From Isoetes taiwanensis (Eukaryota; Streptophyta; Lycopodiopsida; Isoetales; Isoetaceae): a stretch of 64,000 nucleotides of DNA. The notes under the pieces are model-generated. The model was given only the letters and a program-made list of their open reading frames with translations, had not been told where the DNA came from and ran no database searches. Shown here piece after piece: positions 22,590 through 61,899 of the stretch; the stretch's first letter is position 1, and each line of letters starts with the position of its first letter. The stretch lies in assembly GCA_021234155.1 (NCBI GenBank), contig JAJEKV010000054.1, positions 1,777,468 to 1,841,467 of the forward strand, written 5' to 3'. The position numbers were made by a program, and so were the translations under genes.

Positions 22590-22718
<129 letters not shown>

Positions 22719-27877: not shown

Positions 27878-27878
<1 letters not shown>

Positions 27879-37209: not shown

Positions 37210-37293
<84 letters not shown>

Positions 37294-37316: not shown

Positions 37317-38521
37317 CCCGCCATAACGCTAGTACAACTGTCCCTGGCCCTAGGATCAGTGCAGTATAAAGGTGTAACTCCAAACCCTTAATTTTGATGC
37401 ATCACTCTAAGTTGTTAAGCTTCTATCTCACCTTAACCTTGCTGGGCACTATGGGCACACCTTATGTGCACTATGGTTTTAACACTAAACTTTTATTCTA
37501 ACCTTCTAGCATGTCTGGCAGAATAGCTTGTTGCTCTCTATGCTTGGTTTTCATTCTCTTGTTGGGGATACCTCATTTACCCTAATATTGTATTTCACGT
37601 TGGGTCTCTAGTGGCTCACATATGTGTAAGAACCTCTACTGGTCTAGATTATAGTTTTTCTACATGACACTTAGGTTTTGATATTGTGCTGATGTTCCTG
37701 ACCAGCGCTGTATCTTCTTAAGGTAGATGGGTAGACTTCTTGAACATTATTTTCGCATTGATCCAATCTTATCCTCATTGTCTCATTATTTTCGGCATTT
37801 ACCAATTTCAAGATTTTCATATCTTATTACTGGTGTGGTATTGATGTATGGCCTTACCAATTTCTTTGGTTACCCTTTTCAATTTTTGTTAAAATGACCT
37901 TTGTTGGATACAAGCGGCATACTTGGTTGCCCTTGTTGACACCATGGTTACCACTTGGGACAATTTTGTCGGAGTTTTGGTATTTATTAACCACTCAAGG
38001 GTCTCCTTTCGTAGGAATAATCCTTTAAATGCATTTTTTTTCGTATAAGGTTCTTTTTCGTACTATGGCATTTTTTCGTATAGTGACAAGTTAAAAACTA
38101 ACAACTGTTGACCATTATCCACCATATTTCTTGGCATGTGATAAACCCATGGTCTGCGATAACCTATTGCTACTGCCTGTGTTAACCTAACATTCTCCTA
38201 ATACCGCTTCTCGAATCTTCGGCGCCATTGCCTTTTGCAATCATGCTTGAACCTGCTGCTCTAAGGATGCTGAGGAGATCGGATTGCACAAAAATCTGCT
38301 TGTCTTGTATCTTTTTACATTTGGGCTATTTGCTTTGGAAAACACAGTGCGATTGCAACACCTCCGGCTTTGGCATATGTCGGCATTTGCTAAATCTATA
38401 TGGCAAATAAAGTGTTTGGCTTTATAATCCCATCTGGAATAACCTCTATTTTGCATTAAGGCAACTTGTGTGCCTCCTGGCAACTGCGCCATACTGTCTT
38501 TGTTGTTGGTGCCTCCAAGAT

Positions 38522-38859
38522 ATGATGAAGGATGGTAAGAATGAAAAAGCCGGCACTAGGGCTTATCTCTTAAATCGATCAAGAGTCTTTGGCATTGATC
38601 TTGCACCTATTTGCAAAGGGAGAATGAAGTTGTGGCTCAACCATCCAAGCAATTGCTAATGAAGGTGGTTGCTAAATATCAATTTGGATTTGCCTCCTTC
38701 TAAGCGGCTCGGCGGGATCAAGAAATTTATCTCTCAAAGTGGTGAAGGACCCGGCAAAGATGGTCCGGGCGTAGTCTCTGTGGATCTTTGTAGAAAGCAG
38801 AGGCATGCAACAACTTCACTGATGACGAATTTGATGACATCGACATTCAGCCTAATCAG
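38522..38859 (+). CDS. Element exon 1, SAP-like small protein, unit 1
   Basis: The unit 1 counterpart of 46026-46361, ending in QPNQ at CAG|GTTTTG. It is a decayed copy and its frame is not open throughout. The family core (R.YLLN, GIDLAPICK and the acidic DDEFDDIDIQPNQ-type tail) is still visible across frames. Confidence 0.5.
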
Positions 38860-39084
38860 GTTTTGTGTTTGTTTACAGCTCTTAAATATTTGTAATTGGT
38901 GTGTCTTAACCCATTGCAGTCCGCTACTGCACCACATAAATAATCTTCCCATCATTCTGATGGATGCAAATGTGGCCTGAGTAAGAGGCTTACAACAGCG
39001 CATCTAAGCCCCTGTTATATGGTGCATACTCATATTGATTTCAATTTATTCCTTCTATTTCTTTTCTGTTTTAAAGAAAGATTT

Positions 39085-39190
39085 GGTGAGGGGCGATAAG
39101 CTATGTTGAACCGCTGCTTACCTGCTATCCCGAACCTTGTTACCTTCTTTAAGCTAACTTGGGTTTTGTGGGTGTGCGGTGGCGGTTCTA
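39085..39190 (+). ncRNA. Conserved pLTR hairpin module, unit 1
   Basis: GGTGAGGGGCGATAAGC, GCTTACCTGC, then about 48 nt to a degraded right arm (GTGTGCGGTGGCGGTTC) where the sister copy has GTGCAGGTAACTGGTTC. The degraded arm falls on a CAG site, in line with the site-specific error pattern. Confidence 0.5.
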
Positions 39191-40339
39191 CATCTCCAAA
39201 TTTCGTATGTTTTGGATGCATGTGACTAGGGTACATCAAGATTGACAAACTGCTTATGAAAATGAGCTCTGGGTCTGATCTGATCCATTTCTCTATTTTG
39301 GACGTTTCGTTCTATAACTCAGTTATACCGAGGTAATCTGTATTATCTCCAATTTTCAAAGCAGTATTGCTTTAATAACTGGAAAGATGGTTTGGTAATC
39401 TTCTCCCATGCTGGGTTAAGTGTGTATTGCCTTTTAAAACTTTTTCAAGTTGTGGATCTGCTGTTTAAAACACTGATATGCAGCATATGCTCTGCCTTTT
39501 ATAATACTAGCATTTCTTGTTTATGTATGTTGTTGTGCCATTTGGTGGTCTTTTTAATTCAGTAAGCCAATTCTTATGGCATAACCCTTTTTAGTTATGT
39601 TAAGCATGATCTTTTTCCAAAAAAGAATAGGGATTTATATCTGATAGAATACACAGCTTTTGACATAAATATTATCTGAATATTACATTCTTTGTTGCTG
39701 TATATTTACTTTACTACGCACCATAGAATAAAAGAAATAAGCATTTAGATGATGTTTTGTCAGAACTGTGATTCTGTGGTACAACAGTAGTTTACTTGTT
39801 GTGCATTTAACACAAATATGCATTAGCATTGGATATTACCTCTACTGTTCATAATGACTATTGCTTATTCTTGCCACGTGTTCTTACTGGCTTTGTTAAA
39901 AGAACGGTATCTACTTTGTTATGACAACATTTGAAAGAGTCGCTTAATCTATTATGCTACATTTTTGTGCACAAAAATACATTGGCATTTGTTGTTGCCT
40001 TTGCTGTGCCTATCGTGTTAAATATTATGGAGCTGCAGTGCTGGTTCTCTGTGGATTATATGGGTTTCTTTTCAAATTTTGTTATCTTTCTTTAAACTTC
40101 TAGTCTATGTTCTCCTATTTGGGTTCATGAATTAAAAGGTTTTATGGTCTTAGATTGCATAATACTCTTCAAGTATATTCTAAATTTTAGAGCAACTCTT
40201 TATGAAATCTGCTCTAATATAATATAGGATCCCTAAGGCTCTCCTAGTTTCTAGGAGGCCCGATAAATCCTAAAAGGCTTTGGCCTTTCTCGGATAGGCT
40301 AGGTGCGGATGGGTCTAGGTATATATGTAATACTTCAGG

Positions 40340-40358
40340 ACACCGGTTTAACCGGTGT
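40340..40358. repeat. Palindrome at the pLTR/internal junction
   Basis: ACACCGGTTTAACCGGTGT is a near-perfect 19-nt palindrome, just past the 3' end of the first terminal repeat, where internal sequence begins. In unit 2 the equivalent place is a (TA)n tract. It could be a relic of a priming or integration junction. Confidence 0.55.
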
Positions 40359-40552
40359 GAGCCTTAGGGATTCCCTTCTTTTCTATTTTCTTCTGCCTTA
40401 CTACAGTGTATTTTAAGTTATGACAGCATACTAGTCTTTCCTCTGCTGAGATTGTTTACATGCTTTACGCCCTGTGCCTTGGTATTTTTTGGATTCTTTA
40501 CGGTTTATACACTATATTGTTGTATTAACTTCCAAATGCTCTTGCTTGTTAG

Positions 40553-41023
40553 GAAGCTACCATCCCCCATGAAGATGTGGATGTTGAAACTGTTGCTGAG
40601 CAGCAGACTGTATGGAAAGGCATTGATTGGTACCCTGATCTGGTAAAGCTTGGTTATGCCAATTCCAAGATAAAGCCCCCCAACAAGGCTGTACAAGCAA
40701 TATTGGTCTGTCTCATATGGAAGGATGTGCATAAGTACCTAATAAAAAAGGAGGCATTCCTTGGTGAAGATGATGTATCTCTGATCACATTCATAGGTTT
40801 TAACAAAATGTTTGATTTGGTGGCAAAGCTGAACAAACATGGCAGAAACCTAATTACATGCATGAGGCTGATTGATGAAGCACATGAGCAGCTGCCCATT
40901 GCACACTTGGAGGCACAGGATAATGAAATCATGGATGTCCTCACTTTTGTAAAAGGTGCCACTATACTGAGGAGTAATAATAATATTGCATCTAGTGGTT
41001 TCAAAAAGACAACTACTTCGTGA
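40553..41023 (+). CDS. Element exon 2, continuation of the SAP-like protein
   Basis: Opens in phase 0 after TTGTTAG, matching the phase 0 donor of exon 1. About 156 codons, starting EATIPHEDVDVE and containing WKDVHKYL, FNKMFDLVAKLNKHGRN and an acidic EAQDNEIMDV region. No family is recognised. A Lys/Arg-rich stretch follows in another frame close to the end. B lacks the equivalent because a LINE replaces it. A splice from exon 1 to here is inferred from phase and site quality only. Confidence 0.5.
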   Translation, partial: EATIPHEDVDVETVAEQQTVWKGIDWYPDLVKLGYANSKIKPPNKAVQAILVCLIWKDVHKYLIKKEAFLGEDDVSLITFIGFNKMFDLVAKLNKHGRNLITCMRLIDEAHEQLPIAHLEAQDNEIMDVLTFVKGATILRSNNNIASSGFKKTTTS

Positions 41024-41086
41024 AGAAGAAACCAATACCCAAGCGGGTGAAACAGAAATTGGCAAAGAAACCTCTTTGACCTTTCT

Positions 41087-42181
41087 ATGCTTTCAAGAGG
41101 CGAACACCAAGCTGTTAATGTACCTATACCTGCTAATGAACAGCAAGAGGAGGTGATGGATAGCACTGACGTGCTGGAGGACTACAATATTAAGGGCTTG
41201 ACACTATATAATTGCGGTCACTATCCCATCATTTCAGAAAGGCTGGTGGAACTCTTTGGTATTAAGCATCGTCATGGGCTTTGGGAAACACAGAATCTAG
41301 GTATTCTTGCACCTATTAGTATTGACACTTTGAGAAAACTATGCAATATTACAGATGCTGAAATCGAGCAAGCACGCAAGGATGCTGATAATTTTAACAA
41401 AAGAATTGGGAAAATACCTTTGGATCTACCAGTGTCCACGCAGTTTTTTGGTAAGAAATGTGACAGGGACAACGGCATTTACGTTGGCCAAAAAGGCCAT
41501 ATGGCTAAGCTTTCTGACGGTCGATGTGACTTCTACATCAAAAAGATCTGGAGGACGTACTGCCCCTTTCTCAAATGTTGTTGTGACCGTTTCAAGAATT
41601 CAAGTGGAGCCTGCAAAGATCACATAACTTGGTATGATCATGCTGTCTGGTTTATGATCAACAATCTTGATAGGCTGTGGCCAAACCTGTCCATGACGGA
41701 TAGATTTACTGAATTCTATGATGTTATGAATTCCAAAGCCATGAAGGCTGGTGCCATTGCCTTCATTGGTTATCTGAAAATACGCGATATCATGCTTAAA
41801 ATGACTCTCAGACTTGCTGATAATGAGGATGCTGACCTCAAAGAGGAGTTTGGGGATACGAAAGCGGCTTTGTACCTTGAAAGAACGCTTAAAAAGCGTA
41901 AGTTTTTGGAAGATGCCCTAGAATTGGAGGAAGCACAAGCTCCTCGAAAATACGGTGGCAAAAGGAAGAAACAATATGATGATGATGATGAGGTGGAAAT
42001 CTTTATGCCGCCGAAGCTGCGAAAAAAACCTAGTACTTCTCTGATCACTGACATCAGTAGTGAACTCGACTCTATCGAAAATGCAGACCGCATACCTGGT
42101 ACCAATGATTCTGTGAACAAATCTGTTCCTGGGCATCAGACCGTTCGCGATGCTGTCCAACCAAATAAGATGACGTTCTGA
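41087..42181 (+). CDS. Element ORF2, Cys/His-rich protein, copy A
   Basis: An open frame of 364 codons, homologous over nearly its full length to 60781-61899. Conserved: LTLYNCGHYPI near the start; NGIYVGQKGH; KIWRTYCPFLKCCCDRF; then C..HITWYDHAVW, a probable metal-binding Cys/His cluster; GAIAFIGYLKIRD; and a basic/acidic tail with MPPK. YVGQ resembles part of a GIY-YIG nuclease, but the first GIY strand and the usual Arg/Glu pattern were not found. It ends in a TGA 12 nt before an ACAG|GTAATA donor. Confidence 0.65.
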   Translation: MLSRGEHQAVNVPIPANEQQEEVMDSTDVLEDYNIKGLTLYNCGHYPIISERLVELFGIKHRHGLWETQNLGILAPISIDTLRKLCNITDAEIEQARKDADNFNKRIGKIPLDLPVSTQFFGKKCDRDNGIYVGQKGHMAKLSDGRCDFYIKKIWRTYCPFLKCCCDRFKNSSGACKDHITWYDHAVWFMINNLDRLWPNLSMTDRFTEFYDVMNSKAMKAGAIAFIGYLKIRDIMLKMTLRLADNEDADLKEEFGDTKAALYLERTLKKRKFLEDALELEEAQAPRKYGGKRKKQYDDDDEVEIFMPPKLRKKPSTSLITDISSELDSIENADRIPGTNDSVNKSVPGHQTVRDAVQPNKMTF

Positions 42182-42193
42182 TCACCATCACAG

Positions 42194-42566
42194 GTAATAT
42201 TCATTTTATTTGGCTATCAAGCTACGTAATACTCAATATATTTGGAAATCATGCTTACTTTCTTGTCTGATAACTTCTGGTTATTAAAGTTTTATGGAAT
42301 TATGGAATTCTGGCTTTAATGAGTTAATAACAACCCTTTAGTGTATGATGCAAGACGTTTGATAAATAAGGATACCCTTAATGGGTACCTAAAAGAAAGC
42401 CTTATTGGCCATAGAATTTTTTAAGCGGATATCTATTACCCGTGCAAATCTAGTCTGTGCCCCATATTGGAGATGTCTGACATGTATACCATGGTCGTAA
42501 GTTGCTCCAACTATTAGTTTTACTTTTATCACTCTTGCTGAGTTTAACTTCATTACCGCTTAACAG
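42194..42566 (+). other. Intron between ORF2 and RT, copy A
   Basis: GTAATATT donor at 42194 and a CCGCTTAACAG acceptor at 42566. The RT exon then opens with NKTRILDRN. B has an intron at the same place (60286 to about 60769), with its donor also placed 7-12 nt after the ORF2 stop. RT exons in both copies open in phase 0, the phase of the exon 1 donor, so a transcript skipping exon 2 and ORF2 could join exon 1 to RT. Confidence 0.55.
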
Positions 42567-44676
42567 AATAAGACAAGAATTCTGGACAGAAATGATGAAG
42601 GGAGATGGAAGATACGAACTATAAGAGCAAAAAAGAAAATGAAATTTGTTCATTTTACTTTCTTCTCCAAAGCTATTGATCAGATCAAATTCAAGCAGGT
42701 CTTCAAGGATGTTCTGTGCCAACATTTTGGTACTGATGGTGAACAGCTGTTTGATGATACAACCTTTGGGTGGAAATTTGAGAGAAACTTGAGAAGTCTA
42801 CTCTATAAACCTAGAAAGGTTTTCGCGGATGATAAGCAAGTGGCATGCCCTTGTCATAACCCAAGTTTAAAGAAGTACATATGCCAAGAGATTGGGCATA
42901 TTCGAACAACGGATTTAAGTATTGTTCATAGTAAAGCACTTAGGGGCTATCTGAAACTTGGTCTTAATCACATCCCTGATAGACCGTTCTCAATTTGGAG
43001 GTTCAGAAAGGAGATAAGAGCGACAGTTGATCAGTTCTTCAACCTACATAGATTCAGTCTTAATACAACAGAGAAAAATGTTGTTCGTGCTTGCAAGACT
43101 GAGATTACTAATAAGTCATGTATATTGGCAACTGAATTTGTTAAGTCTAACAGATCAAAGCTTAAAAAGTTCCCTATTATGGATACCCTGGTTACCAAAA
43201 ATATTGATTGGCTCGTGAGCAACTTATACATTGCTGGGGTTGATAACGCCTCAAATAATCCTGCATTTGTTTGCCCTAGGCACATGAGGGATGCTGCTAT
43301 TGCCCGACTTGACAGCCATGACTTCATTAAGGTTTCTGCCTCACCTCTTGAAATCAAAGAGAGGTTATGTAAGGAATTGATATTGCTTATCCCCTCACTT
43401 GATCTCGTTACTACTGATTTACCGTATCTGTTCGGGATTTTTAAAGCACACAAAAACTCATATAGATGGCTAACTAGTGCCCACTGCTCTATCTTCTCGC
43501 AGATTGCTTCTCTTGTGGCTAATGGACTTAACACTATTTTAGAGTTATGGCCTAGTATGTGTGAAAGTTCTTTGGCTTCGGTCAACTTTTTTCGTAAAGA
43601 TAAGATTAAAGCATCATGGATTGTTGATTCCGTCTATGATATCGCTTGTAATATGCCTGCACAAGTCAAGGATCTTTTTGTAGCCGACATAACCAGATGT
43701 TACGAGAACATTCCCATTGAGGGGAATGATGGGATCTGCCATGTAATCTCCAGCATCATAAAGAAGGTCTGGAATTTTCAAAGACTTAAGAATAAGAATG
43801 CAAAACTGTGGTATAAATTTAAAAATAATGACCGTGTTTTTAGCCGAATGGAAGGCAAAGAAGTTTAAAGTGACCAATGGGTGATGATTGATGAAAGCTT
43901 GTTTGCCCGAATGAATACCTGGTTGTTAAGAAATTGTTTCCTGCAGATGGGCAGAAAAATTTGGAAGCAGGCTAGAGGAATACCCATGGGGTTTGCCTCA
44001 GCCAGCCACGCATGGTGCAATCTGTACCTTGCTTCCTTTGAGCTCAACTTTGTGCTCCGACTGATAAGGAATGGTAACTTGGATGTTTGCCGCCAAGTAA
44101 TACTTATCGATACATTGATGACATGATTAGTATCAACAACCCTTACATCGTAAAATTTCTTGGTTTTGATGACCAAGCTCAAGTATCGATACCATTTATA
44201 ATCTGAATTTTCTAAGCATTGAGGATGAAAATGGGTCTCTTTGGGGTGACACTAACTTTTGTATTTTTAGAGGACGAAAAGTAAATTTTCTAAGCATGTC
44301 TATTGAAGTATCTGATCCTTTACATGGCATTTTTGAGACGCACCATTATGACAAAAGGGACAAGCTCCCATTTGTGGTCTCTAAATTCGTGCATGCAAGC
44401 GGTTGCAGGCCATATCACTTCGCTAAGAAAGTGATTATTTCACAAATTATGCCATTGCTCTACGTGCACTCTTGTCCGATTGATGCTGCTCATGCTCTAC
44501 TTGGGCTGATACATGCCTTCGTCAAAAAAGGCTTCTTGCAACATGACATCTGGTCTGCAGTGGTTAAGGAGCTTGAAAGCGGGATATTCCCAGGATTACG
44601 CTATGATGTTACAACGGTGCAATGCTTGCTGAAAAAATACAGGTATGCTCTTTGTGAATTTTGTTTTTTATGGTAG
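42567..44676 (+). mobile_element. Reverse transcriptase region, element A (broken)
   Basis: A Penelope/telomerase-type RT region, homologous along its length to the 704-residue RT of copy B. The pre-RT Cys/His motif, the D.A.NNP motif, the AHKNSYRW motif, palm motif A (DITRCYENIP) and the downstream YDKRDKLPF are visible. The region has about two or three breaks. Fossil; no working product is expected. Confidence 0.75.
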
Positions 44677-44684
44677 TAGTGGGC

Positions 44685-44780
44685 TGGGTGGGTCCCTATG
44701 TAGTATAGGGATCCCCCTTCCCCTATTACTACAACTGGGACCTATGCTGCCTTCCGGGTGGAGGTAGGTCTATTTTTTAG
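44685..44780 (+). ncRNA. 3' terminal hairpins of element A
   Basis: Hairpin 1, GGGTCCCTATGTAGTATAGG then GATCCC (44689-44715), has a 10-bp stem with one bulge. Hairpin 2 is CTGCCTTCCGGGTGGAGGTAGG (44747-44768). Both occur in the same order, with changed but pairing bases in hairpin 1, at 24110-24187 (minus). Hairpin 1 also occurs at 58128-58162 (minus). They are probably RNA structures at the 3' end of the element transcript. (TA)n follows. Confidence 0.6.
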
Positions 44781-44815
44781 CATATATATAGATATAGATA
44801 TATATATATATATAT
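44781..44815. repeat. (TA)n tract between unit 1 and unit 2
   Basis: ATATATAGATATAGATATAT-type tract, the same word as before unit 1. Confidence 0.9.
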
Positions 44816-46025
44816 CCCGCCATAACGCTAGTACAACTGTCCCTGGCCCTAGGATCAGTGCAGTATAAAGGTGTAACTCCAAACCCTTAATTTTGATGCA
44901 TCACTCTAAGTTGTTAAGCTTCTATCTCACCTTAACCTTGCTGGGCACTATGGGCACACCTTATGTGCACTATGGTTTTAACACTAAACTTTTATTCTAA
45001 CCTTCTAGCATGTCTGGCAGAATAGCTTGTTGCTCTCTATGCTTGGTTTTCATTCTCTTGTTGGGGATACCTCATTTACCCTAATATTGTATTTCACGTT
45101 GGGTCTCTAGTGGCTCACATATGTGTAAGAACCTCTACTGGTCTAGATTATAGTTTTTCTACATGACACTTAGGTTTTGATATTGTGCTGATGTTCCTGA
45201 CCAGCGCTGTATCTTCTTAAGGTAGATGGGTAGACTTCTTGAACATTATTTTCGCATTGATCCAATCTTATCCTCATTGTCTCATTATTTTCTAAGATTT
45301 ACCAATTTCAAGATTTTCATATCTTATTACTGGTGTGGTATTGATGTATGGCCTTACCAATTTCTTTGGTTACCCTTTTCAATTTTTGTTAAAATGACCT
45401 TTGTTGGATACAAGCGGCATACTTGGTTGCCCTTGTTGACACCATGGTTACCACTTGGGACAATTTTGTCGGAGTTTTGGTATTTATTAACCACTCAAGG
45501 GTCTCCTTTCGTAGGAATAATCCTTTAAATGCATTTTTTTTCGTATAAGGTTCTTTTTCGTACTATGGCATTTTTTCGTATAGTGACAAGTTAAAAACTA
45601 ACAACTGTTGACCATTATCCACCATATTTCTTGGCATGTGATAAACCCATGGTCTGCGATAACCTATTGCTACTGCCTGTGTTAACCTAACATTCTCCTA
45701 ATACCGCTTCTCGAATCTTCGGCGCCATTGCCTTTTGCAATCATGCTTGAAACTGCTGCTCTAAGGATGCTGAGGAGATCGGATTGCACAAAAATCTGCT
45801 TGTACAGGTATCTTTTTCTGACTGGGCTATTTGCTTTGGAAAACCTGGTACGATTGCAACACCTCCAGCTTTGGCATATGTCCTGGCATTTGCTAAATCT
45901 ATATGGCAAATAAAGTGTTTGGCTTTATAATCCCATGCGGAATAACCTCTATTTTGCATTCCGGCAACTTGTGTGCCTCCTGCGCCTGCGCCATACTCTG
46001 TGCTGTTGTTGGTGCCCTCCAAGAT

Positions 46026-46361
46026 ATGATGAAGGATGGTAAGAATGAAAAGCCTGGCACTAGGGCTTATCTCTTAAATCTGATCAAGAGTGCTGGCATT
46101 GATCTTGCACCTATTTGCAAAAGGGAGAATGAAGTTGTGGCTCAACCATCCAAGCAATTGCTAATGAAGGTGGTTGCTAAATATCAGCTGGATTTGCCTC
46201 CTTCTAAGCCTGGCTCTGGGATCAAGAAATTTATCTCTCAAAGTGGTGAAGGACCCAGCAAAGATGGTCCAGACGTAGTCTCTGTGGATGCTGTAGAAAC
46301 AGAGGCATGCAACAACTTCACTGATGACGAATTTGATGACATCGACATTCAGCCTAATCAG
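46026..46361 (+). CDS. Element exon 1, SAP-like small protein, unit 2
   Basis: 112 codons open from ATGATGAAGGATGG to the CAG|GTTTTG donor. The product starts MMKDGKNEKPGTRAYLL, continues NLIKSAGIDLAPICKRENE, then PSKQLLMKVVAKYQLDLPPS, GSGIKKFISQ and an acidic tail DDEFDDIDIQPNQ. Two helix-like (T/S)(R/K)xxLLxxxxxxxL segments resemble SAP/HeH DNA-binding repeats (inference). It is the best-preserved plus-strand copy. An upstream in-frame extension to 45903 exists but starts in less conserved sequence. Confidence 0.65.
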
Positions 46362-46586
46362 GTTTTGTGTTTGTTTACAGCTCTTAAATATTTGTAATTG
46401 GTGTGTCTTAACCCATTGCAGTCCGCTACTGCACCACATAAATAATCTTCCCATCATTCTGATGGATGCAAATGTGGCCTGAGTAAGAGGCTTACAACAG
46501 CGCATCTAAGCCCCTGTTATATGGTGCATACTCATATTGATTTCAATTTATTCCTTCTATTTCTTTTCTGTTTTAAAGAAAGATTT

Positions 46587-46688
46587 GGTGAGGGGCGATA
46601 AGCTATGTTGAACCGCTGCTTACCTGCTATCCCGAACCTTGTTACCTTCTTTAAGCTAACTTGGGTTTTTGTGGGTGCAGGTAACTGG
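46587..46688 (+). ncRNA. Conserved pLTR hairpin module, unit 2
   Basis: GGTGAGGGGCGATAAGC, GCTTACCTGC, 47 nt, GTGCAGGTAACTGG. Left and right arms pair over TTACCTGC/GCAGGTAA. It is the intact plus-strand version of the module. Confidence 0.6.
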
Positions 46689-47827
46689 TTCTACATCTCC
46701 AAATTTCGTATGTTTTGGATGCATGTGACTAGGGTACATCAAGATTGACAAACTGCTTATGAAAATGAGCTCTGGGTCTGATCTGATCCATTTCTCTATT
46801 TTGGACGTTTCGTTCTATAACTCAGTTATACCGAGGTAATCTGTATTATCTCCAATTTTCAAAGCAGTATTGCTTTAATAACTGGAAAGATGGTTTGGTA
46901 ATCTTCTCCCATGCTGGGTTAAGTGTGTATTGCCTTTTAAAACTTTTTCAAGTTGTGGATCTGCATTTTTAAAACACCGATATGCAAAGATATGCTCGCT
47001 TTTTATAATACTAGCATTTCTTGTTTATGTATGTTGTTGTGCCATTTGGTGGTCTTTTTAATTCAGTAAGCCAATTCTTATGGCATAACCCTTTTTAGTT
47101 ATGTTAAGCATGATCTTTTTCCAAAAAAGAATAGGGATTTATATCTGATAGAATACACAGCTTTTGACATAAATATTATCTGAATATTACATTCTTTGTT
47201 GTCAGATATTTACTTTACTACGCACCATAGAATAAAAGAAATAAGCATTTAGATGATGTTTTGTCGAACTGCGGATTCTGCGGGGTACAACAAATAGTTT
47301 ACTTGTTGTGCATTTAACACAAATATGCATTAGCATTGATATTACCTCACCGCTCATAATGACTATTGCTTATTCTTGCCACGTGTTCTTACTGGCTTTG
47401 TTAAAAGAACGGTATCTACTTTGTTATGACAACATTTCAAGAGTTGCTGCTTAATCTATTATGCTACATTTTTGTGCACAAAAATACATTGGCATTTGTT
47501 GTTGCCTTTGCTGCGGCCTATCGTGTTAAATATTATGGAGTCAAGTAAAGGTTTGGTTCTCTCGTGGATTATATGGGTTTCTTTTCAAATTTTGTTATCT
47601 TTCTTTAAACTTCTAGTCTATGTTCTCCTATTTGGGTTCATGAATTAAAAGGTTTTATGGTCTTAGATTGCATAATACTCTTCAAGTATATTCTAAATTT
47701 TAGAGCAACTCTTTATGAAATCTGCTCTAATATAATATAGGATCCCTAAGGCTCTCCTAGTTTCTAGGAACTGATAAATCCTAAAAGGCTTTGGCCTTTC
47801 TGGATAGGCTAGGTCTGGGACCAGTCT

Positions 47828-47830
<3 letters not shown>

Positions 47831-47868
<38 letters not shown>
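47831..47868. repeat. (TA)n tract after the unit 2 terminal repeat
   Basis: 38 bp of TA, at the place where unit 1 has a short 'tatatatgta' relic. Confidence 0.9.
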
Positions 47869-47871
<3 letters not shown>

Positions 47872-50800
47872 TGGGATTCCCTTCTTTTCTATTTTCTTAC
47901 TTTCATAGCCTAGAATGGGTGGAAAGATACTCAGTCTTTCGATATGGGTGGGAAGCTCCATGCTAGTTACCCTTGGTATTTTTGGATTCTTTTAAGTTTA
48001 TACACTATATTTTGTATTAACTTCCAAAATCTCTTGAGTTACTAAAACTACCATCCCCCATGAAGATGTGGATTTGATTCGGGCCTAGGAATGGAAAATT
48101 TGATTGGAATAAAAGCTTGGTTATGCTAATTCCAAGATAAAAGCCCCCCAACAATTTTCAAAATTTAAATTTTGAGTCTATGGTTCCATGGCCAATGTGC
48201 ATAAGTATCCAATGAATAGGTGGAAATGCATGTTGGAATATTTGTTTCAATGGCTAAAGTATTTGGCGTGAAAATAGAACTCATGTACAAGATGTTGCCT
48301 TGTTAAAAAAGCAAAGGTACATATAATTGCAACAAATTGGGCGCATAATATGCAAAATGCATGAGGCACCATGGTCAAAGCACATATAGTACGTGTAAAT
48401 TTTATAATTTGCAGGCAATGTTGGGACATGCCATCATGGAAGTGTTGGCTTTTTGTAAAAGTTTTGCATGCATGAACCTACATGCATGATACGACATCTT
48501 TAAGCATTTAGTGCTTTCAAATAGCATGATACGGCATCTATATGATATGATGTCTTGTTCCTATAAAACAAAAATTTGAAGATATTCTTTGCCTTTATGG
48601 CATGAAAATTAACAATGGTTAATTTGTGGCCTTTGAAAACTTCGATTGAAAAGCAAGAGGCTAGGTGAAAAATAGATCCTATTTGTGAGCTTGGCACCAT
48701 GAGAAAATATCTCACAAGACAAGCATTGACATTAATATAATTGGTTTCACTATCCGGTAAATGTTAAAACTTGGAAATTATTTTTATTAAATCGCCATGG
48801 GCTTTTTGAAATCGAAATGAACCTAATCCAAGTATTGAAGCATTGGAAAACTATGCAATATGGCTACTTGAATCCATGTTGGAATCCAAAGCGGGCACTC
48901 AAGGATCCGGATCGCATGTGATTGCATACAAAAGAATTGGGAAAAATAAAAATGATTCAAAGGATCACGCTGAGTTTTGGTAAGAAATATGGCGTAATTC
49001 TGATATGCACTTGGCCATATATGATTGGCTGTTACACACTTCGTCCATGAGATGCATCGAAAATACCAAGGCATAGATGGGCTCTTCTAGTTTTATTTTT
49101 GGGGCTCAGAATTCAAGTGGTTCGGTTGCGAAAGATCAATTTGTTCTTGGTAAGATTCTTCTTGGGATGATCAACAATCTTGATGCATAACAACTGTTTG
49201 ACGGATATATGGCAAATATCTATTTGAGCGATTTTTTTCTTTAAAAAGCCTTGTCGGGGTTGCCATTGCCTTGTTGGCAAGGCACATATTCAAAATCATG
49301 CATTGTTGCTTTTCGTTATTCAAAGAGCGAGGATAATGGATGGCTAATCGGAGTTTGCAAATATGCGAGGTATGCATTTATACCTTTAAATAACGCCCAA
49401 AAAATAAGCTTTTTGGATATGCCATGAGGTATTATCTATTCTCTCAAACTATTTGAAAGAGCACCAAAACATTTGTTTGCTTTTATCATCATTATTATTT
49501 GAAAAATGTTCTCCAAGATAATTGTGGCTAAATAGCAAAGATGACCGTAGGCGGCCATGTATGTGTAGGTTTTGGTTGTACCTAAAGCCTAGCTACAAAA
49601 TGATTAAGGATGTGGCCTGCGGCTTAAAACTAGCATTGACTTTCCAATAGAGACGAAAATGAGGTATGGATTTTATTTTATTAATATTTTGTTCTATTAC
49701 GGAAAGTTGAGCATAAATCATATTTGTGATTTGTGCTATAATAGATATTTAAATTATTTAAGGACTTATTGGAAAAAATCATGTTGCATTTTTAATAGAG
49801 CACTTAATGGATATGGTTTAAACCTACCGACCCCATTATGGTTTGAATGCATTGGAAGCATAGGCTCAACTTCTAATTTGTGGAGGCTTATAGCGAATAA
49901 TCAAGTTGCACACTTATGATAATGGAGATGGAACGGATACTATAAGAGCAAAAAGAACCATATATTCCATTTGTCGGAAATTCTTTAAGATGCCTTAGTG
50001 TATGAAAATGCAAAGGCATGGCAACAGTATTCTAAAATAGTGAGGATTCAATTGATATAACAACAAATATGACTCTAAATTGAGGCATATAATTACGAAT
50101 AAAACCTAGAAAAGGCCATGGATGATTTATGGGTGCATTCATATGGTCTTATCGAGTTTAAATTGTACTTGTGCCAGTAGCTTAATGAATAAGCAACAAT
50201 GCATTTAAGCTTTTTTGTGTTTAAAGCTAATGGCTGAAGCTAGAAATGGTCTTAGGCATGTTGCACCATGTCTATACTTGGGGTGCATAAAAATTATAAG
50301 TTTGACTAACATGTGACAAGTCCTATTGTAGTTGATTGGATTTGAAAAAAATCACGTTATAATTCCATCTTTCTTGTTAATGTTTTATATTGGGCAAAAG
50401 GATACAATTGGTGATCAAAGGATAAAAGAGACCCAATGTACCTTTTGGCCCTTACAAATTTATTGATTTCCGCCTAATTGTGTATTGATTGGTTGTTGAT
50501 AAGGGTTCTCTCGCATTCCAATTGTCTCTATTTTGCAAACCCGGGTTGGTGTTAACATGGAAGGTTATGGAATCACCTTTAAAAAATGGAAGAGTATACT
50601 ATGCACTTTGTATGTTATTGTCTAAACTATTCAATTTCAATTCAATAATAGTGCATTTTTGCAATTTTACTTTCAATATGACTCTATGCTTTTTGCTTAA
50701 GAATTTGTTGCAACAACTTTTGCATTCAGGTTACATGGCTTTGGGGCTTGAGAACACCTTTTAGAGTTGCCTTGAATGTTAAGTGTTGAATTACGTTATG

Positions 50801-53800: not shown

Positions 53801-54999
53801 ACTTAATGGATTTGGTGAGGGGCTTATTACTATGTTGAATACATTGGAAGCATAGGCTCAACTCTAATTTGTGGAGGCTTATAGCTTAATAAGTTGCACA
53901 TTTATTTTTTGTGGTGGAGGAATCGGGTTCTAAAAGACCATATATTCCATATGTTTTGAAATTCTTTTAAGATGCCTTAGTGTATGAAAATGCAAAGGCA
54001 TGGACAAGTATTCTAAAAAAATGATTCGGGTCTGAACACAAATATGACTCTAAATTGAGGCATATAACCCGCAATAAAAGTGGCCAGATATGATTTTATG
54101 GGTGCATTCATTTTGGTCTTATCGAAAATGGTTTGATAGTATGCTTAATGAATAAGCAATATGTATTTGCTTTTTGTGTTTTTCAAGCCATGGATTCGGG
54201 GTTAAAAAATTAATAGAGGCATGTTGCACCATGTCTATAATGGGGTGCATAAAAATTATAAGTTTGACTAACATGTGACAAGTCCTATTGTAGTTGATTG
54301 GATTTGAAAACATCTCTTATGTTATCAATTCCATTTTTCTTGTTAATGTTTTGATTTTTTCCCAAAAAGAATACAATTGGTGATCGATTGATAAATGCCT
54401 TTTGAGATAAATGTACCTTTTTGGCCCCTTGCACATTTATTTACTTTCACGCTTAATAGTGTATTGAGAAATAAGCATTTAGATGATGTTTTGTCCTCCA
54501 ATTGATTCTATTTTTGCAAACCGGGTTGGTTTTAACATGGAAGGTTATGGAATGACGCAAAAAAAATGGATTGCTTATACTATGCACTGTTTGTATGTTA
54601 TTGTTAAACTATTCAATTTCAATTCAATAATGAGTGCATTTTTTGCAATTTAATCGATATGACTACTATTTTTTGCTTAAAAATTTGTTGCATTTGTTTT
54701 TGCATTCTGGGTTACATGGCTTAAATATTTGGAGAAATCAGCCTTCTACCGGGTTGCCTTGGATGTTAAGTGTTTTTCAAATTTTGAATATTTTGCAACT
54801 ACTTTTCATTAAGAATACATGGTGTTGGGGCTTGAGAAATTTATGGTCTTCTTTAGGTAGCCTTAATGGTTAGTTGTTGTATTCTAGTTTAAATCAACTA
54901 AAATTAAAATAGTACGGGATCCCTGTGGGATGGGCCCAGGTAACGCCGGAGACGCAAATCCTAAAAGGCAATCTTCTGATAAATCTTCCTGTAGGTGCT
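47869..54999 (+). repeat. Scrambled continuation of the array, blended with a 4-kb repeat
   Basis: Short words (15-40 bp) from unit 1 appear here in the right order: 48056 matches 40565 (CCCCCATGAAGATGTGGA), 49151 matches 41655, 51171 matches 43871, then 52790, 53095 and 54470 match 38083, 38370 and 39737 at a constant offset near 14.7 kb. Between these words lies other sequence, itself repeated with a period of about 3.96-4.0 kb (48470/52427, 49040/53035, 50830/54805). No open frame of the element survives. It may be real recombination, but a consensus built from two different repeats is more likely. Confidence 0.7.
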
Positions 55000-55000
55000 A

Positions 55001-55173
<173 letters not shown>

Positions 55174-56528: not shown

Positions 56529-56631
56529 GGTTACCTGCAGTGAAACCAAAGCAAATTAGCCTTAATCAGGGTAAATTACTAAGCCACTAGCAGGTAAGCT
56601 ATCGTCTAATCTCGGCTCTTCGCCCTTCACC
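56529..56631 (-). ncRNA. Conserved pLTR hairpin module, element B
   Basis: In element sense: GGTGAAGGGCGAAGAGCC, AGCTTACCTGC, 50 nt, CTGCAGGTAACCC. The arms GCTTACCTGC and GCAGGTAACC pair at 9 of 10 positions. This diverged copy keeps exactly the same parts as S1, S2, S3 and the A units. Confidence 0.55.
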
Positions 56632-56720
56632 AAATTAAAATCTAAATACAATAAGATTTGTCAAATGCTTCAGTTAAATAAAAGAGTTTAGAGCAGCGAG
56701 AAAAAAATCTACTTTAACCC

Positions 56721-57060
56721 GATTTAATGGGATTGGATCATTTTCATCCAAGTCCCGCTCATCGATTTGGTTCAGCTCCTCATGCTCGGCTTCAAGGGTC
56801 GCCGGCCTATATCTTGGTAATCTCGAGGCCAGACCTCTCCCTGTTAGTCATTTCCACTCCAGTGTTTGTCTTGAAGATACTCTTAATGGTGCCAGCGTTG
56901 CTTGGGCCTGTAGATGCCAGATTATACTTCTCAACCATCTTTTCTAAGAATATCTTGCTTTCCGGTTATGCTTTATGCTTTCTCCATTCGCCTTGCAAAG
57001 CGCCTTTGATTTAGCCCGGCTTTTTCTATCGGATCCAAATAGGTTTAGCCCTTGTAAACC
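56721..57060 (-). CDS. Element exon 1, element B copy (decayed)
   Basis: The minus strand shows the acidic tail DERDLDENDPIPLN ending at the position of the exon 1 donor, as in S1 (IPLNQ), and an upstream stretch with GPSNAGTIKSIFKTNTG. It is not open throughout. Identification rests on the shared tail, the position in the terminal repeat and the nearby hairpin module. Confidence 0.4.
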
Positions 57061-58127
57061 CCTGGGTTCTGTGCCCTCATGCCTAGGCATTGCATGCAAG
57101 AATGGCTAAATTTTTGCCCTACAGCTCAATCGAATGTTCCCTTGTATTAAAAAGGCCGGACCAAATCCGGTTCCTCCGGAAGCTTAGGAATTGGTAAACG
57201 TAAATCCATACATACCTTTTATTATAGCATTGAGAAGATTTTTGCTTGCTTTTTGCATGGCTCCGGTCTCTGCGACATCCTGCCCATTCAAATTTCCTCA
57301 TTACTCGTAGTGGCCTGATCGGAGCGCCACCGTCAATCTTGTTCTTCAGTACATCTTAGGTTAAGATAGCAACCCTAAACTGTTAGTCTGGATGAAAAGT
57401 TTGACACGTTATACCTCTTTGCATTATTATTTTTGTATAATAACCTATTTTATAGGGTGTCGTAAATCAGCCATGCCTCCATGTCTCCCATGTTATGCCA
57501 AATACCATTATCTCATGGTCATACCTATGTTAGAATCTTTATTTCATTAAAATACCTTTGGTTGTAGCCATGCTGTTGTAGCCTATGTTTGCCAATTTTG
57601 GTCCATGCTCCTAGTAGCCCATGCTTTTTCTCATTCCTATTTCGCTGGGCTATGCCTTGGACGTTTGTAATTGCTGAAAGTGTGACAATTCGAACCTCTC
57701 CTCCAACCTTACCCTTCAATACACTTAAGGTAGAGAGAATATACCTTAAACTAATATTCTGCAATAGGAAAACATGTCTATCTCCATGCCTAACTCCTAA
57801 ATAATAAGATTATATCCATATGCTTGTAATTTTTTCATCTCTTACCCTTGGGTGCCTGTGCCATTTCAGTTTTCCTTACCCTGTACCTAGTGCCCTCAAA
57901 ATGTTGAATTCCATTATTAATTGGTCCAAAAACCTTAGACCTTTGGCCTATTAATAATATCCTTAGTATTTACCTTGCTGCCTTACCCCGTTGGTGCAGA
58001 CTTTTGGTCCATTCCTCCATTCTTGAATGCCAAATATTTATTTCCATTTCCTTGTGCTGCAAGACATGTAACGAGACAAAACTCGTTTGGAAGGCATGAG
58101 CTGGTCAAAATGTAGTAAAGGGGTAGG

Positions 58128-58162
58128 AGGGTCCCTATACTACATAGAGACCCTCCCTGCCC
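58128..58162 (-). ncRNA. 3' hairpin of element B
   Basis: GGAGGGTC.CTAT and ATAG.GACCCTCC arms pair at 12 of 13 positions around a five-base loop. It lies about 40 bp after the RT stop and is equivalent to hairpin 1 of element A. Several stem positions differ from A and from 24.1 kb, but pairing is kept. Confidence 0.6.
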
Positions 58163-58203
58163 ACTTTTCTTATATCAGCTGATCACATAATGTTACCTGA
58201 TGC

Positions 58204-60318
58204 TCATAAAAGCCTTTGAGTCTTAAGTACCCTAATGACTGCAGATACATCAAATTTAAGCCCCGGGTATCCACCTTTTTCAAGTGTTCTATAAAGTGTA
58301 ATTTTTATGTCTTTTTCCTTGAAGCCATTTTTAATAAATGCTTGCATGAGTTTGTGCAAGTCCTCTGCTGCAGATACCGGGTTAGTGTGCACGTAAAGGT
58401 GCGGCATAACTTGTGAAATTATAATATTTCTGGCCCAATAATACGGTCTGCATGCCTCTGCATGCACAAATCTGGATATGCGAAACGGTAATTTATCTCT
58501 TTTGTCATAATGACAGGTTTGAAAGATCCCATGATATGGATCCAGGATGCTGATGGTCATATTGAGGAAGTTGACTTTCCTTCCTTTATTTTCCAGCCCA
58601 AAGTGATCTCCCCAATATTCTGTTTCATCCTCTATTGTCAGATAATTCAGATTATATATTGTGTCCAATATGTTGTCCTTGGCTTGGAGCCCGAGAACCT
58701 CTCTGATGTAACAATTATTGAGGCTTAGAAGATCGTCCATGTACCTGCAAGTATCTGCAAAGGTAGCAGCTTCCTTATACTTCCCGGCTTTGACAAGTCT
58801 TAGAATGAACTGCAGTTCGAACCATGCCAAGTACAGATTGCACCATGCTGGGCTACTAGAGAACCCCATGGGGATTCCTTTAACTTGTTTCCATATCCTA
58901 CCACCCATCTGCAAATAGCAGTTTTGCAAGAGCCATGAATTCATATTAACAAAGTATTCTTCGTTGATGCAGATCCAGTTATTGCTTTCAGGTCTGGCAT
59001 GCCTCCACATGACTTTAATTTGGCCATTATTTCCAACCTTGTACCAAAGGTTGTTGTTGTGGTGCTTCTTATTTTGATACTTCCATATACTAGATATTAC
59101 ATTTTTCATGACCTTGCAAATACCGTCATCTCCCTCAAGAGGGATATTCTCGTAACATTTGGTCACATCTGCCACAAACACATCTGTAATTTTTGAAGGC
59201 AAATTGCAAGTTACATCATATATGGAATTAATTATCCATGATGCTCTGATCTTATTTTTTTGGAAAAGGTTAACCTTGGCCAGCTTGTCCTCACATATGC
59301 ATGGCCAGAGATCACAAAGATTAGTTAGGCAAGCTGCAACCAGAGAGGCCAATTGTGAGAAAATAGATTCATGTGCGCTTGTAATCCACCTATAGCTATT
59401 TTTGTGCGCTTTAAAGATACCCAGCATGTATGGTAGCTCTTTTGTTTCCAAACTCCAATCTTGCAGAAACCATTGGATTTCCCGGCTAATCTTTTCTGTT
59501 AGATCATGTGGGCTGATCCCCACTAAGTGGAAGTCCTCACTGTTTAACCTGTGTAAGGCCTCCTCCCTGATGTGCCTTGGGCAGATGAAAGAAGGATTGT
59601 TTGCTGCTTTATCAATGCCAGAGATGTAGAAGTTAGTTACCAGCCAATTCATGTTGCTTGTAACAGTTACATCATTGATTGGGAATTTTTTTTGGTCCCT
59701 CTTTCCCTTAAGAAGCTTTTGAACTGAGGCACATGCTTTTCTTAACATGTCCTTCTTGCACTCAGCAAGAATTTGCTTGTCTATATCACTTGTGCTGTAT
59801 TTATGTACTGCAAAAAATTGGTCTATAGAGTTGACCAACTCGTTTCTGAACTGTATGGAAGTGAAAGGTCTATCCGGTATATGGTTAAGACCTATACTCA
59901 GCCATCTCTTAAGAGCTTTACTATGGATCAGGTCCAAATTTGTAGTCCTAATGTGGCCTATGTCTGGGCAGATATATTTCTTGAGAGCTGGGTTATCACA
60001 TGGGCACGAGACTTCATTGTCCTGGGCAAAAACCAGTTTTGGTTTGTATAGCATACTTTTAAGATTTCCAATGAATTTCCAACCAAAGATGGTTTCATTC
60101 CACATTTTCTCTCCTGCATCCCCCATATATTTTATAAGCACCTCTTTGAAGGCCTTCGTGAACTTCACTTTCTCAACAAATTTGGAGAAGAATCTGAAAT
60201 GTACGTATTTACTACTAGTCTTGTCCTTTACTGTTATTAATCTCCATTTGTTTTCTGCATCCTTGAGTAGGACCCGTTTATTATTCTGTAAATTTGACAT
60301 TTCCAAACCCAATATCAA
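58204..60318 (-). CDS. Reverse transcriptase, Penelope-like, element B
   Basis: An open frame of 704 codons. Residues 105-122 hold a Cys/His motif (C.C ... C....H). GIDKAANNPSFICP at 234-247 matches the 'DKGN' N-terminal motif of Penelope RTs, and YMLGIFKAHKNSYRW at 297-311 matches their 'GLPKIHK' motif. Palm motif A is FVADVTKCYENIP (381-393), motif B KGIPMGFSSSPAWCNLYL (480-497) and motif C YMDD (526-529). GRKVNFLNMTI (579-589) and HYDKRDKLPF (603-612) follow. There is no C-terminal GIY-YIG nuclease. The likely exon start is codon 12, just after a TTTACAG acceptor at 60286. The frame looks whole, but the 5' side of the element is interrupted by a LINE. Confidence 0.88.
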   Translation of the reverse strand: MILGLEMSNLQNNKRVLLKDAENKWRLITVKDKTSSKYVHFRFFSKFVEKVKFTKAFKEVLIKYMGDAGEKMWNETIFGWKFIGNLKSMLYKPKLVFAQDNEVSCPCDNPALKKYICPDIGHIRTTNLDLIHSKALKRWLSIGLNHIPDRPFTSIQFRNELVNSIDQFFAVHKYSTSDIDKQILAECKKDMLRKACASVQKLLKGKRDQKKFPINDVTVTSNMNWLVTNFYISGIDKAANNPSFICPRHIREEALHRLNSEDFHLVGISPHDLTEKISREIQWFLQDWSLETKELPYMLGIFKAHKNSYRWITSAHESIFSQLASLVAACLTNLCDLWPCICEDKLAKVNLFQKNKIRASWIINSIYDVTCNLPSKITDVFVADVTKCYENIPLEGDDGICKVMKNVISSIWKYQNKKHHNNNLWYKVGNNGQIKVMWRHARPESNNWICINEEYFVNMNSWLLQNCYLQMGGRIWKQVKGIPMGFSSSPAWCNLYLAWFELQFILRLVKAGKYKEAATFADTCRYMDDLLSLNNCYIREVLGLQAKDNILDTIYNLNYLTIEDETEYWGDHFGLENKGRKVNFLNMTISILDPYHGIFQTCHYDKRDKLPFRISRFVHAEACRPYYWARNIIISQVMPHLYVHTNPVSAAEDLHKLMQAFIKNGFKEKDIKITLYRTLEKGGYPGLKFDVSAVIRVLKTQRLL

Positions 60319-60769
60319 ACTGGGTTCTGTATTTTAATGATAAAATTGAAACAACCTTACCAAAAAAATCTGTTTTTTGTCTTTCAGATTTTGGGGCGTG
60401 GTTCCCATATTCTGACTTTTACTACGTGCCCATTTCCTTCTTGGCATACTAGCCACTCCCATCCTGGTTCAGTGACCATGGGGATTCTCAAAGGGTTTTT
60501 AGCCCTTTGGTGCAATGATTCTTGTTTTGGCATAATAGCCATTCTTTTTGTTGGCATAATAGCCCTTCCCATTTAGGTCTAGTAACCTTAGGGGTTTAAA
60601 GTTTACACGCAAAGCATGCTTTTAGTCAGGAACTTCCGGGTACCTATAAAAGTTTATTCTACTTTGTAGCAGTAAACAAGTATTCAGGCCGACCCTCATT
60701 AAGAGGGTGTATGCTAATAACAAATTCAGAATTGAAAAGAAATTATCCTTTCATAAAGTAAAGAAGTAC
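60286..60769 (-). other. Intron between ORF2 and RT, element B
   Basis: Minus-strand donor CCAAAG|GTACTT about 60769 and acceptor TTTACAG ending at 60286. It is at the same place as the intron of copy A, so splicing is part of the family plan. No open frame crosses it. Confidence 0.5.
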
Positions 60770-60780
60770 CTTTGGTATCA

Positions 60781-61899
60781 TCAAAACTTGAGAGTAGTTG
60801 GTTTTATGGTCGTGGCTCGAGCATACGCATCTCCAGTAGGTTTGTTGACAGAGTTCTCCATATTGTTGCTAGTTGTTTGGTTTGAAGTTACCTCAGAAAT
60901 ACCTGCTCCAGAACTGGAAGCTTTCTGTGGCTTTTTCTTGTACTTGGGAGGCATGATCACCTCCAAATCCTCATCAAACTTCTGCTTTCTTTTCTGTGCT
61001 GGATACCTTTGTTTCGTATCCCTTTCCTCCAGATCCAATGAATCATTGAGAAACTTTCTAGGTCGTATTGTTTTCTCCAAGATGTCAGCTGTTTTTGTGT
61101 TACCAAATTCCTGTTTTAGACAAAGAGTATTGTCTTCAGCATATTTACTAGTCATTTTGATCATTGTATCCCGAACCTTCAGGTATCCAATGAATGCCAC
61201 TGCTCCAGCTCGCATGCCTTCTGAATTCATCATTTTGTGAAACTGGTAGAACCGGTATCTTGAAGACTTGTTGGGCCATATTTTTTCAGTGCTGTTCATA
61301 ATGTACCAGACTGCCTGGTCAAACCAGGTAATGTGATCATTACAATTTGTAACCCCGTTCCTGCCATATTTGTCACAGCAGCATTTAATGAAAGGGCAGA
61401 ACGTACGCCATATCTTTCTTGCATACAAATCATTCCTTCTCTCATCAGTCTTGGCTATATGGCCTTTCTGGCCCATGTACATACCGTTATTTCTGTTGCA
61501 TTTTTTGCCAAAGAATTGGGTGGTGAAAGGCATGTCAAGTATTATTCTATCAATCCTTTTAGTAAAGGTGTCAGCATCTTTTAAAGACTGTTTTATTTCC
61601 TCCTCTGTTATGCCACATATGCTGATAAGTACACTGGTACTGACAGGGGCCAAAACCCCCAAATTGTGCGCGTTCCAAAATCCTTGATCACATTTGACTC
61701 CTTGCAGTTCTGCCAGCCTAGTGGACAAGATAGGAAAGTGGTAGCAGTTGTAAAGAGTGAGCCTTTTGAGCTCATAATTATCCAGGTCATCCTGCACTTC
61801 TAGTATTTCAGGTTCCACCTCCTGCGCTGGTTCCAGTTCCAAAACCTCATTCTGTTCCTCTTCTGACAGCATATTGATGCTGAATAGACAGTTAGTCAT
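60781..61899 (-). CDS. Element ORF2, Cys/His-rich protein, element B
   Basis: An open frame of 372 codons, clearly homologous to 41087-42181: LTLYNCYHFPI, NGMYMGQKGHIAK, KIWRTFCPFIKCCCDKY, C.DHITWFDQAVWYIMN, GAVAFIGYLKVRDTM and a Lys-rich end with MPPKYKKKPQK. The conserved start is the internal Met at codon 10 (NMLSEEEQ, matching SMLSRGEH in A). The first few codons border the LINE insertion and may not belong. The role is unknown: a nucleic-acid-binding partner of the RT, or the missing nuclease, are the two ideas. Confidence 0.7.
   Translation of the reverse strand: MTNCLFSINMLSEEEQNEVLELEPAQEVEPEILEVQDDLDNYELKRLTLYNCYHFPILSTRLAELQGVKCDQGFWNAHNLGVLAPVSTSVLISICGITEEEIKQSLKDADTFTKRIDRIILDMPFTTQFFGKKCNRNNGMYMGQKGHIAKTDERRNDLYARKIWRTFCPFIKCCCDKYGRNGVTNCNDHITWFDQAVWYIMNSTEKIWPNKSSRYRFYQFHKMMNSEGMRAGAVAFIGYLKVRDTMIKMTSKYAEDNTLCLKQEFGNTKTADILEKTIRPRKFLNDSLDLEERDTKQRYPAQKRKQKFDEDLEVIMPPKYKKKPQKASSSGAGISEVTSNQTTSNNMENSVNKPTGDAYARATTIKPTTLKF

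Follow-up and report, generated by a model that had tools for sequence, protein, structure and literature searches.

Naiad and Chlamys are Penelope-like elements (PLEs) whose tandem copies form pseudo-long terminal repeats (pseudo-LTRs) and which insert at microsatellites. Both reportedly carry an N-terminal GIY-YIG domain, as set out by Craig et al. 2021. Endonuclease-deficient, or EN(-), PLEs of the Athena/Coprina type have two open reading frames (ORFs) and no endonuclease; among them, rotifer Terminons possess a 3' hammerhead and, beyond it, a sequence complementary to the telomere, by which they pair with chromosome ends (a portion of PMC6431247). Penelope/Poseidon elements retain introns in their genomic copies, according to a portion of PMC3846280. 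Here we describe a PLE family of the lycophyte Isoetes taiwanensis from a 64,000-nucleotide stretch of contig JAJEKV010000054.1 (hereafter the window, to whose positions all coordinates refer). The window contains element A on the plus strand, element B on the minus strand and an internally deleted element D, and hence at least three elements of the family. We consider it probable that they represent an endonuclease-free, telomerase-like group of PLEs that inserts at (TA)n tracts.

The family shares with Naiad and Chlamys the CxC motif before the reverse transcriptase (RT), the length of the RT C terminus, pseudo-LTRs and microsatellite insertion, but differs in having a separate ORF2 exon and leader exon, no GIY-YIG domain in our searches and an RNA with no Rfam match at threshold. 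Like Athena, Coprina and Terminons it has no endonuclease domain, more than one ORF and a 3' RNA fold followed by a stretch able to pair with the target (same portion of PMC6431247), whereas theirs are a hammerhead and telomere repeats, and the family has another fold, a TA tract and interstitial sites. A telomerase-like RT, tandem partial copies and introns retained in genomic copies are common to the family and to Penelope/Poseidon, including the conifer Dryads, but the C-terminal GIY-YIG and hammerhead of the latter were not found. Telomerase (TERT) itself is similar in fold to a modelled family RT; the family, in contrast, is mobile, interspersed and encodes its RT as part of a multi-ORF unit.

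ORF2 and the RT form a conserved unit

In assembly GCA_021234155.1 (1,658,258,908 bases, 1110 contigs), 63 of 4773 candidates from an RT search were scored and 30 loci were fetched, one of which (L001) is B itself, while two (L028 and L029) are near-identical. ORF2 lies upstream of the RT on the same strand in all 30 loci, a pattern that is not due to chance. No internal stop was present in 39 of the 63 genomic RT matches, one was present in 20, two in 3 and seven in 1. The median ratio of nonsynonymous to synonymous substitution rates (dN/dS) was 0.096 for the RT and 0.099 for ORF2, dS being usable in 6 of 136 and 7 of 171 pairs, respectively; judged by these ratios, both are under purifying selection. 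The ORF2-RT plan is a real family trait, and the family is interspersed and forms tandem copies. By title and start of abstract, no prior description of the family was found in the literature, one in Craig et al. 2021 being possible, and the main text of the Isoetes genome paper contains no mention of Penelope.

Each unit comprises, in order, a short leader exon (exon 1), the ORF2 exon with about 550 codons and a terminal stop, the RT exon with about 700 codons, an RNA of about 94 nt and an AT tract, after which the next unit begins. Unit length is 7.5 kb in A and 7.2–8.4 kb, by ORF2 or motif spacing, in genomic arrays (for example C1025, C912, C1064, C985 and C1094). Tandem or partially tandem copies form pseudo-LTRs in these arrays as well as in A, whose direct repeats are 37283–40686 and 44782–48154, and in D, which spans 19463–27905 and has exon 1 in both of its repeats (Table 1).

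ORF2 is a single open stretch of 541–568 codons in seven loci (L064–L070), in five of which it begins at an acceptor-like AG|GAAGG, and its alignment contains invariant Cys, His and Trp residues. In A, the ORFs beginning at 40553 and 41051 are halves of one exon, lying in the same frame and separated by in-frame stops. At E 1e-3, no ORF2 homologue was returned by a single-sequence search or by a profile of 22 rows, for which 7995 candidates were scored. Pfam with a cut-off of E 1 gave five families only, the best being zf-C2H2_aberr (6 of 22 rows, E 0.0014), and the profile had no PDB match under E 0.025. A likeness by eye to the N-terminal part of the Selaginella protein P0004 was no better than in shuffles and was dropped.

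Exon 1 recurs beside many family copies with a conserved core, M(G/P)KxEG..TRxKLLDLI..AGLDL..LC...QPTKxFLE.IV.RYNL, and an acidic tail. Nine copies have a phase-0 NQ|GT at their end: L003, L004, L006, L026, four in the window and L072, in which the frame is disrupted at an earlier point. A stop precedes any NQ|GT in L001, L009, L011, L013, L014, L018 and the left copy of A, and in the other exon 1 loci the stretch ends first or a different CAG|GT was picked (L008).

A preliminary description of the locus had placed RTs in A and B, and a conserved ORF2 in both, where we find them (the RT frame is broken in A and open in B, and the ORF2 sequences are 47% identical), and its view of the arrangement as a family trait and not an accident is borne out by the 30 loci. 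Stray host genes do not explain the flanking ORFs, as ORF2 keeps its place upstream of the RT and is under selection, and exon 1 recurs with the copies. The proposed second exon and the ORF2 of about 365 residues are, in our analysis, parts of the one exon that is broken in A, so that the conservation of ORF2 stood and its separation from another exon did not; direct terminal repeats are likewise present, with a length of 3.4 kb instead of 3.0 kb. A and B do not share the whole plan, since B seems to be cut at 61899 by an L1 element and has traces of exon 1 only downstream. The SAP-like character given to exon 1 was also lost, as Pfam SAP matched one of five exon 1 proteins below threshold (E 0.034) and the other four not at all, and the profile search proposed for ORF2 assigned it to no family. 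A diverged exon 1 copy at 9626–9934 on the minus strand is the sole one of the five with sub-threshold SAP matches.

A probably telomerase-like RT without a recognisable endonuclease domain

The predicted structure of the L027 RT, with a predicted local distance difference test score (pLDDT) of 89, matched telomerase over residues 84–705, and its top 16 structural matches were all telomerase; RT sequence searches against the PDB gave no match under E 0.6. The CxC motif before the RT is invariant in two alignments (A2 and A5) and common to the family and its relatives. Among 46 RT relatives, a set without the named Penelope, Athena and Coprina references, the nine nearest come from Selaginella, Chara and metagenomes, while a precomputed GIY-YIG is present in nine of the remaining 37; no relative was confirmed in viral and prokaryote contigs. 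By modelled fold and architecture the family is Penelope-like, as first described, and among these relatives its RT was not seen outside PLEs. We judge it rather likely that the RT is of the CxC (Naiad/Chlamys-like) type, telomerase-like and without a recognisable endonuclease. In the metagenome RT P0002, a pyrimidine tract and acceptor-like codons seem to be read as part of the ORF ahead of the RT start, a hint that an intron before the RT is perhaps present in relatives too.

Pfam GIY-YIG was absent from the RT and ORF2 pieces of the window, 22 ORF2 rows and 5 exon 1 copies. Consistent with the earlier claim that the RT has no C-terminal GIY-YIG, no profile matched there, 97–126 residues being present beyond DKR in 17 full-length family rows. 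An N-terminal GIY-YIG was not found in the RT, ORF2 or exon 1, and a profile of 16 such domains, which recovered its own kind at 100% and ORF2 at 0.3%, gave nothing significant in the six frames of the window. Genome-wide, 140 GIY-YIG matches were found, the one closest to a site of the 63 RT matches being 21 kb away, and regarding supply by a neighbour, none of 30 GIY-YIG loci matched the family RT, ORF2 or exon 1. In these loci (L031–L060) the matches mostly fall in ORFs of about 60–200 codons with YIGQT-like motifs, which belong to several repeat families unlinked to the family RT; repeat X (see below) is present in one (L044) and absent in 29. The Selaginella model P0004 (1002 amino acids) also has no GIY-YIG by Pfam. 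On these searches, the family has no known endonuclease domain, as in the Athena/Coprina EN(-) PLEs.

Splice signals suggest skipping of the ORF2 exon

A stop closes ORF2 in every one of the 30 loci, with all three stop codons used, and the gap from the ORF2 match to the RT match is 225–715 nt. An in-frame CAG (TAG in L021) precedes the first conserved Arg/Lys of the RT by exactly four codons in 38 of 40 sequences (29 of L001–L030, eight of nine ORF2 loci, and A), the exceptions being L005, which is one codon shorter with its CAG in phase 0, and L063, in which the site was not found. Read as the RT acceptor, this CAG is in phase 0, as are the exon 1 donor and the ORF2 acceptor. A cruder automatic scan, replaced by this frame-anchored one, had put the acceptor in phase 0 in 27 of 30 loci (three at a farther site) and in other phases in L018, L065, L067, L068 and L070. 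The intron-like stretch just before the RT, noted in the preliminary description, is present in both A and B, and a donor-like site occurs 3–16 nt past the ORF2 stop in 23 of 30 loci, at distances in all three phases. No ATG in the RT exon is common to the copies.

From the phase-0 signals, the constant ORF2 stop and the lack of a conserved RT ATG, we propose as the simplest reading of these sequences that the RT is made by skipping the ORF2 cassette exon, inclusion of which would give an exon 1-ORF2 protein and skipping an exon 1-RT protein. The proximity of stop and donor would protect the ORF2-including transcript against nonsense-mediated decay. Readthrough of the ORF2 stop into the RT is not favoured, because of the phase.

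A covarying RNA lies at the unit boundary

The RT stop is followed by a conserved stretch of about 94 nt, then by the AT tract and the start of the next unit. Alignment of 26 sequences gave three helices, P1 (11 pairs), P2 (8 pairs, from a loop to downstream sequence) and the hairpin P3 (5 pairs), with 96.8% paired; P3 and the AT tract are missing in B, and L030 is partly deleted. Two-sided changes were seen in six pairs, P1 and P2 contributing three each and P3 none. No slid version and 1 of 500 shuffles equalled this number, counts that are not probabilities because the RNA sequences are related. One P1 pair is unpaired in 8 of the 26 sequences. Single-strand folding of seven copies (z scores of -2.1 to -3.8) showed P1 and an extended P2 in competition, with a preference that differs by copy, pointing to a pseudoknot or a two-state switch. 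A nested outer helix (AGTG/TACT) was tried in place of the pseudoknot and rejected, as its four pairs vary one-sidedly.

A covariance model, containing nested helices only, matched the coding strand at all 31 loci with an RT 3' end, 24 of which were used in the model (left out: L001, L008, L009, L011, L012, L029 and L030). In the window it matched three times (A, B and D), plus weakly at 17125–17210 (E 0.036), and in 30 GIY-YIG control loci not at all. Also, an exact 21-mer around P3 has 88 occurrences in the genome and none in reverse; they are often spaced as in arrays, for example 8333 or 8337 bases apart. Rfam gave no family at gathering in the window, and in five loci searched up to E 10 it gave six matches (best E 1.9), all far below gathering and none of them a hammerhead.

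Left edges of a few copies are at (TA)n tracts

All five left edges examined, two of them inferred, are at (TA)n tracts: those of A and D in the window, and those of three genomic copies chosen for retrieval of short stretches, C1067 ((AT)60 or more), C1019 ((AT)84 or more) and C1052. Tracts of at least 8 TA make up 1.1% of the window and were not present in 97 kb of control loci. With these left edges, and one of three right edges clear (the (AT)110 tract at the end of the C1052 partial repeat, L078), the copies examined display an insertion bias for microsatellites. The right repeat of A ends about 130 nt inside the ORF2 exon and that of C1052 about 250 nt before it, which would fit a tail as in an Anolis PLE; there, reverse transcription starts inside the RNA near the ORF start and leaves a genomic tail, with AT-rich DNA preferred.

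Repeat X (35808–37316, inverted at 22578–24096; also L076:1–475 and L044:2173–3249) contains minisatellite units of type GTAAGGGAATCTAAGG and ends in a (TA)n tract. It is found left of A, of the downstream repeat of D and of the C1052 element, and immediately adjoins several elements of the family.

Other features of the window

Table 1. Positions of family elements and their parts in the window.
Feature	Position	Strand	Remarks
(TA)n tract, left edge of element A	37210..37316	.	
Left terminal (pseudo-LTR) repeat of A, running into ORF2 exon	37317..40686	+	93% identity to 44782-48154
Exon 1, left copy of A, frame broken	38523..38858	+	limits via offset from 46026-46361
ORF2 exon of A including stop	40553..42181	+	in-frame stops ~41021-41050; open over 541-568 amino acids in L064-L070
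Putative intron of A, ORF2 stop to RT exon	42194..42566	+	donor-like and acceptor-like sites
RT exon of A, frame broken	42567..44676	+	tblastn to B: three pieces, three frames, between 42564 and 44676
Structured RNA element of A	44674..44767	+	model R1, 87.7 bits
AT-rich tract, unit junction of A	44782..44816	+	
Right partial repeat of A, ending in ORF2 exon homologue	44817..48154	+	repeat comparison
Exon 1 of right repeat of A	46026..46361	+	ATG to NQ|GT, donor-like end in phase 0
RT exon of B, open, CxC motif, YMDD	58207..60285	-	frame open 60333 to 58207
ORF2 of B, C-terminal two thirds	60784..61899	-	homology to ORF2 of A
Structured RNA element of B, without most of P3 and AT tract	58078..58169	-	76.6 bits
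Exon 1 remnants, downstream repeat of B	56810..57105	-	
Structured RNA element of D (third, internally deleted element)	24111..24199	-	66.5 bits
Upstream repeat of D	24790..27905	-	left edge at (TA)n 27879-27904
Downstream repeat of D	19463..22620	-	94% identity to 24790-27905
Exon 1 of D	26337..26663	-	

The ORF2 homology of B ends at 61899, where it is adjoined by an A9 run and by an L1 of the same orientation. This plant L1 (zf-RVT; 61900–63643, minus strand, with its zf-RVT-bearing ORF at 62663–63643) adjoins B by its A9 tail and seems to interrupt it. Directly right of A, 48150–50961 and 52121–54944 are repeats of 76% identity, with an exon 1-like stretch at 53092–53600, and are probably a decayed relative of the family. 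A tandem duplication of 2.3 kb (13082–15379 and 15378–17681) is 97% identical.

Discussion

The family has the CxC motif in common with a PLE branch that is characterised by GIY-YIG, a feature not seen in its own sequences, and its RNA and ORF2 protein match nothing at threshold in the libraries searched. Set against the hammerhead and pairing stretch of Terminons, its own fold, UA tract and TA sites lead us to favour endonuclease-free, telomerase-like priming at TA ends. In such a scheme, unspliced unit RNA, which a weak exon 1 donor (CAG|GTY) may leave available for copying, would be bound through its structured RNA by the RT and probably also by the ORF2 protein. Copying would proceed at 3' ends that become accessible in (TA)n tracts, such tracts being prone to breakage and able to pair with the UA tract; these 3' ends would stand in for the nick normally made by GIY-YIG, and repeated use of one (TA)n tract would yield head-to-tail arrays. 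In a more specific form of this proposal, the RT, its telomerase-type core complete, is directed by a novel pseudoknotted RNA that is neither a hammerhead nor any Rfam family found; the adjacent UA tract would pair with (TA)n that is broken or unwound, and the RT would be made only on skipping of the ORF2 cassette exon. The family would be intermediate between mobile PLEs on one side and telomerase plus its RNA on the other; we offer this form tentatively and regard it as somewhat unlikely in full.

Several observations weigh against the endonuclease-free reading or its parts. In a first alignment of 25 sequences, two-sided changes were seen in four RNA pairs and were matched by 46 of 500 shuffles, the stronger figure having been obtained after adding L073, and the covariance model also gave weaker antisense matches at the same loci, as hairpins would. 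The weakness of the exon 1 donor is a further point against. At the left edges of C1067 and C1019 (L074 and L075) the sequence ends inside the TA tract, and the unit start was placed by inference; the presence of X to the left of several elements means that left edges are not fully independent; and of the three right edges one is clearly TA (L078), that of D is AT-rich and that of A, at 48154, has no tract. Finally, the structure prediction for ORF2 (L069 copy) reached a pLDDT of 40 and was not used, so that ORF2 may hold a new kind of nuclease.

Among the alternatives, the family could be a plain plant member of the known Athena/Coprina PLEs, with the RNA as its 3' fold and TA tracts replacing telomere repeats. 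The layout at the 3' end is that of Terminons, and EN(-) PLEs of Selaginella and conifers appear in a review table, but the CxC motif, which is common to GIY-YIG-bearing relatives, the absence of a hammerhead among the Rfam matches and the interstitial position of the copies, at TA tracts, make this unlikely in our view. The family could instead be a Chlamys element with its N-terminal GIY-YIG in an overlooked upstream exon, moving like other Chlamys. Chlamys has been recorded from green algae and spike mosses, with a microsatellite bias, and Chara and Selaginella are in the RT group of the family; however, no GIY-YIG was present in the RT, ORF2, the six window frames or within 21 kb of the 63 RT places, and P0004 has none either, so that we think this very improbable.

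Two further alternatives concern parts of the endonuclease-free reading, and we hold both to be distinctly unlikely. The RT might come from a bicistronic spliced mRNA, exon 1-ORF2-RT, by readthrough or reinitiation past the ORF2 stop instead of exon skipping. The donor-like sites after the ORF2 stop and the frame kept in A would agree with this, but the identity of the stop codon and the phase of the distance both vary, the donor was not recognised in 7 of 30 loci and the RT has no conserved ATG. For the structured RNA, the main alternative role is that of a boundary-cleaving ribozyme of a new class, a counterpart of the PLE hammerhead that would cut tandem transcripts into units. Its place directly before the unit start that forms the left edges of copies is consistent with such a role, as are its covarying, pseudoknot-capable helices; folding, however, also allows a simple two-state hairpin.

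No mobile elements are closer to telomerase than PLEs, and the family bears on how an endonuclease-free PLE could reach interior sites. In the Isoetes family, a covarying RNA is located where rotifer Terminons carry a hammerhead and a telomere-pairing stretch, and the existence of hammerhead counterparts within this branch of PLEs becomes testable. Because the RNA, the well-modelled RT and the (TA)n target are all small, telomerase-like priming could feasibly be tested in vitro, and the family may show how such elements move without a DNA cutter of their own.

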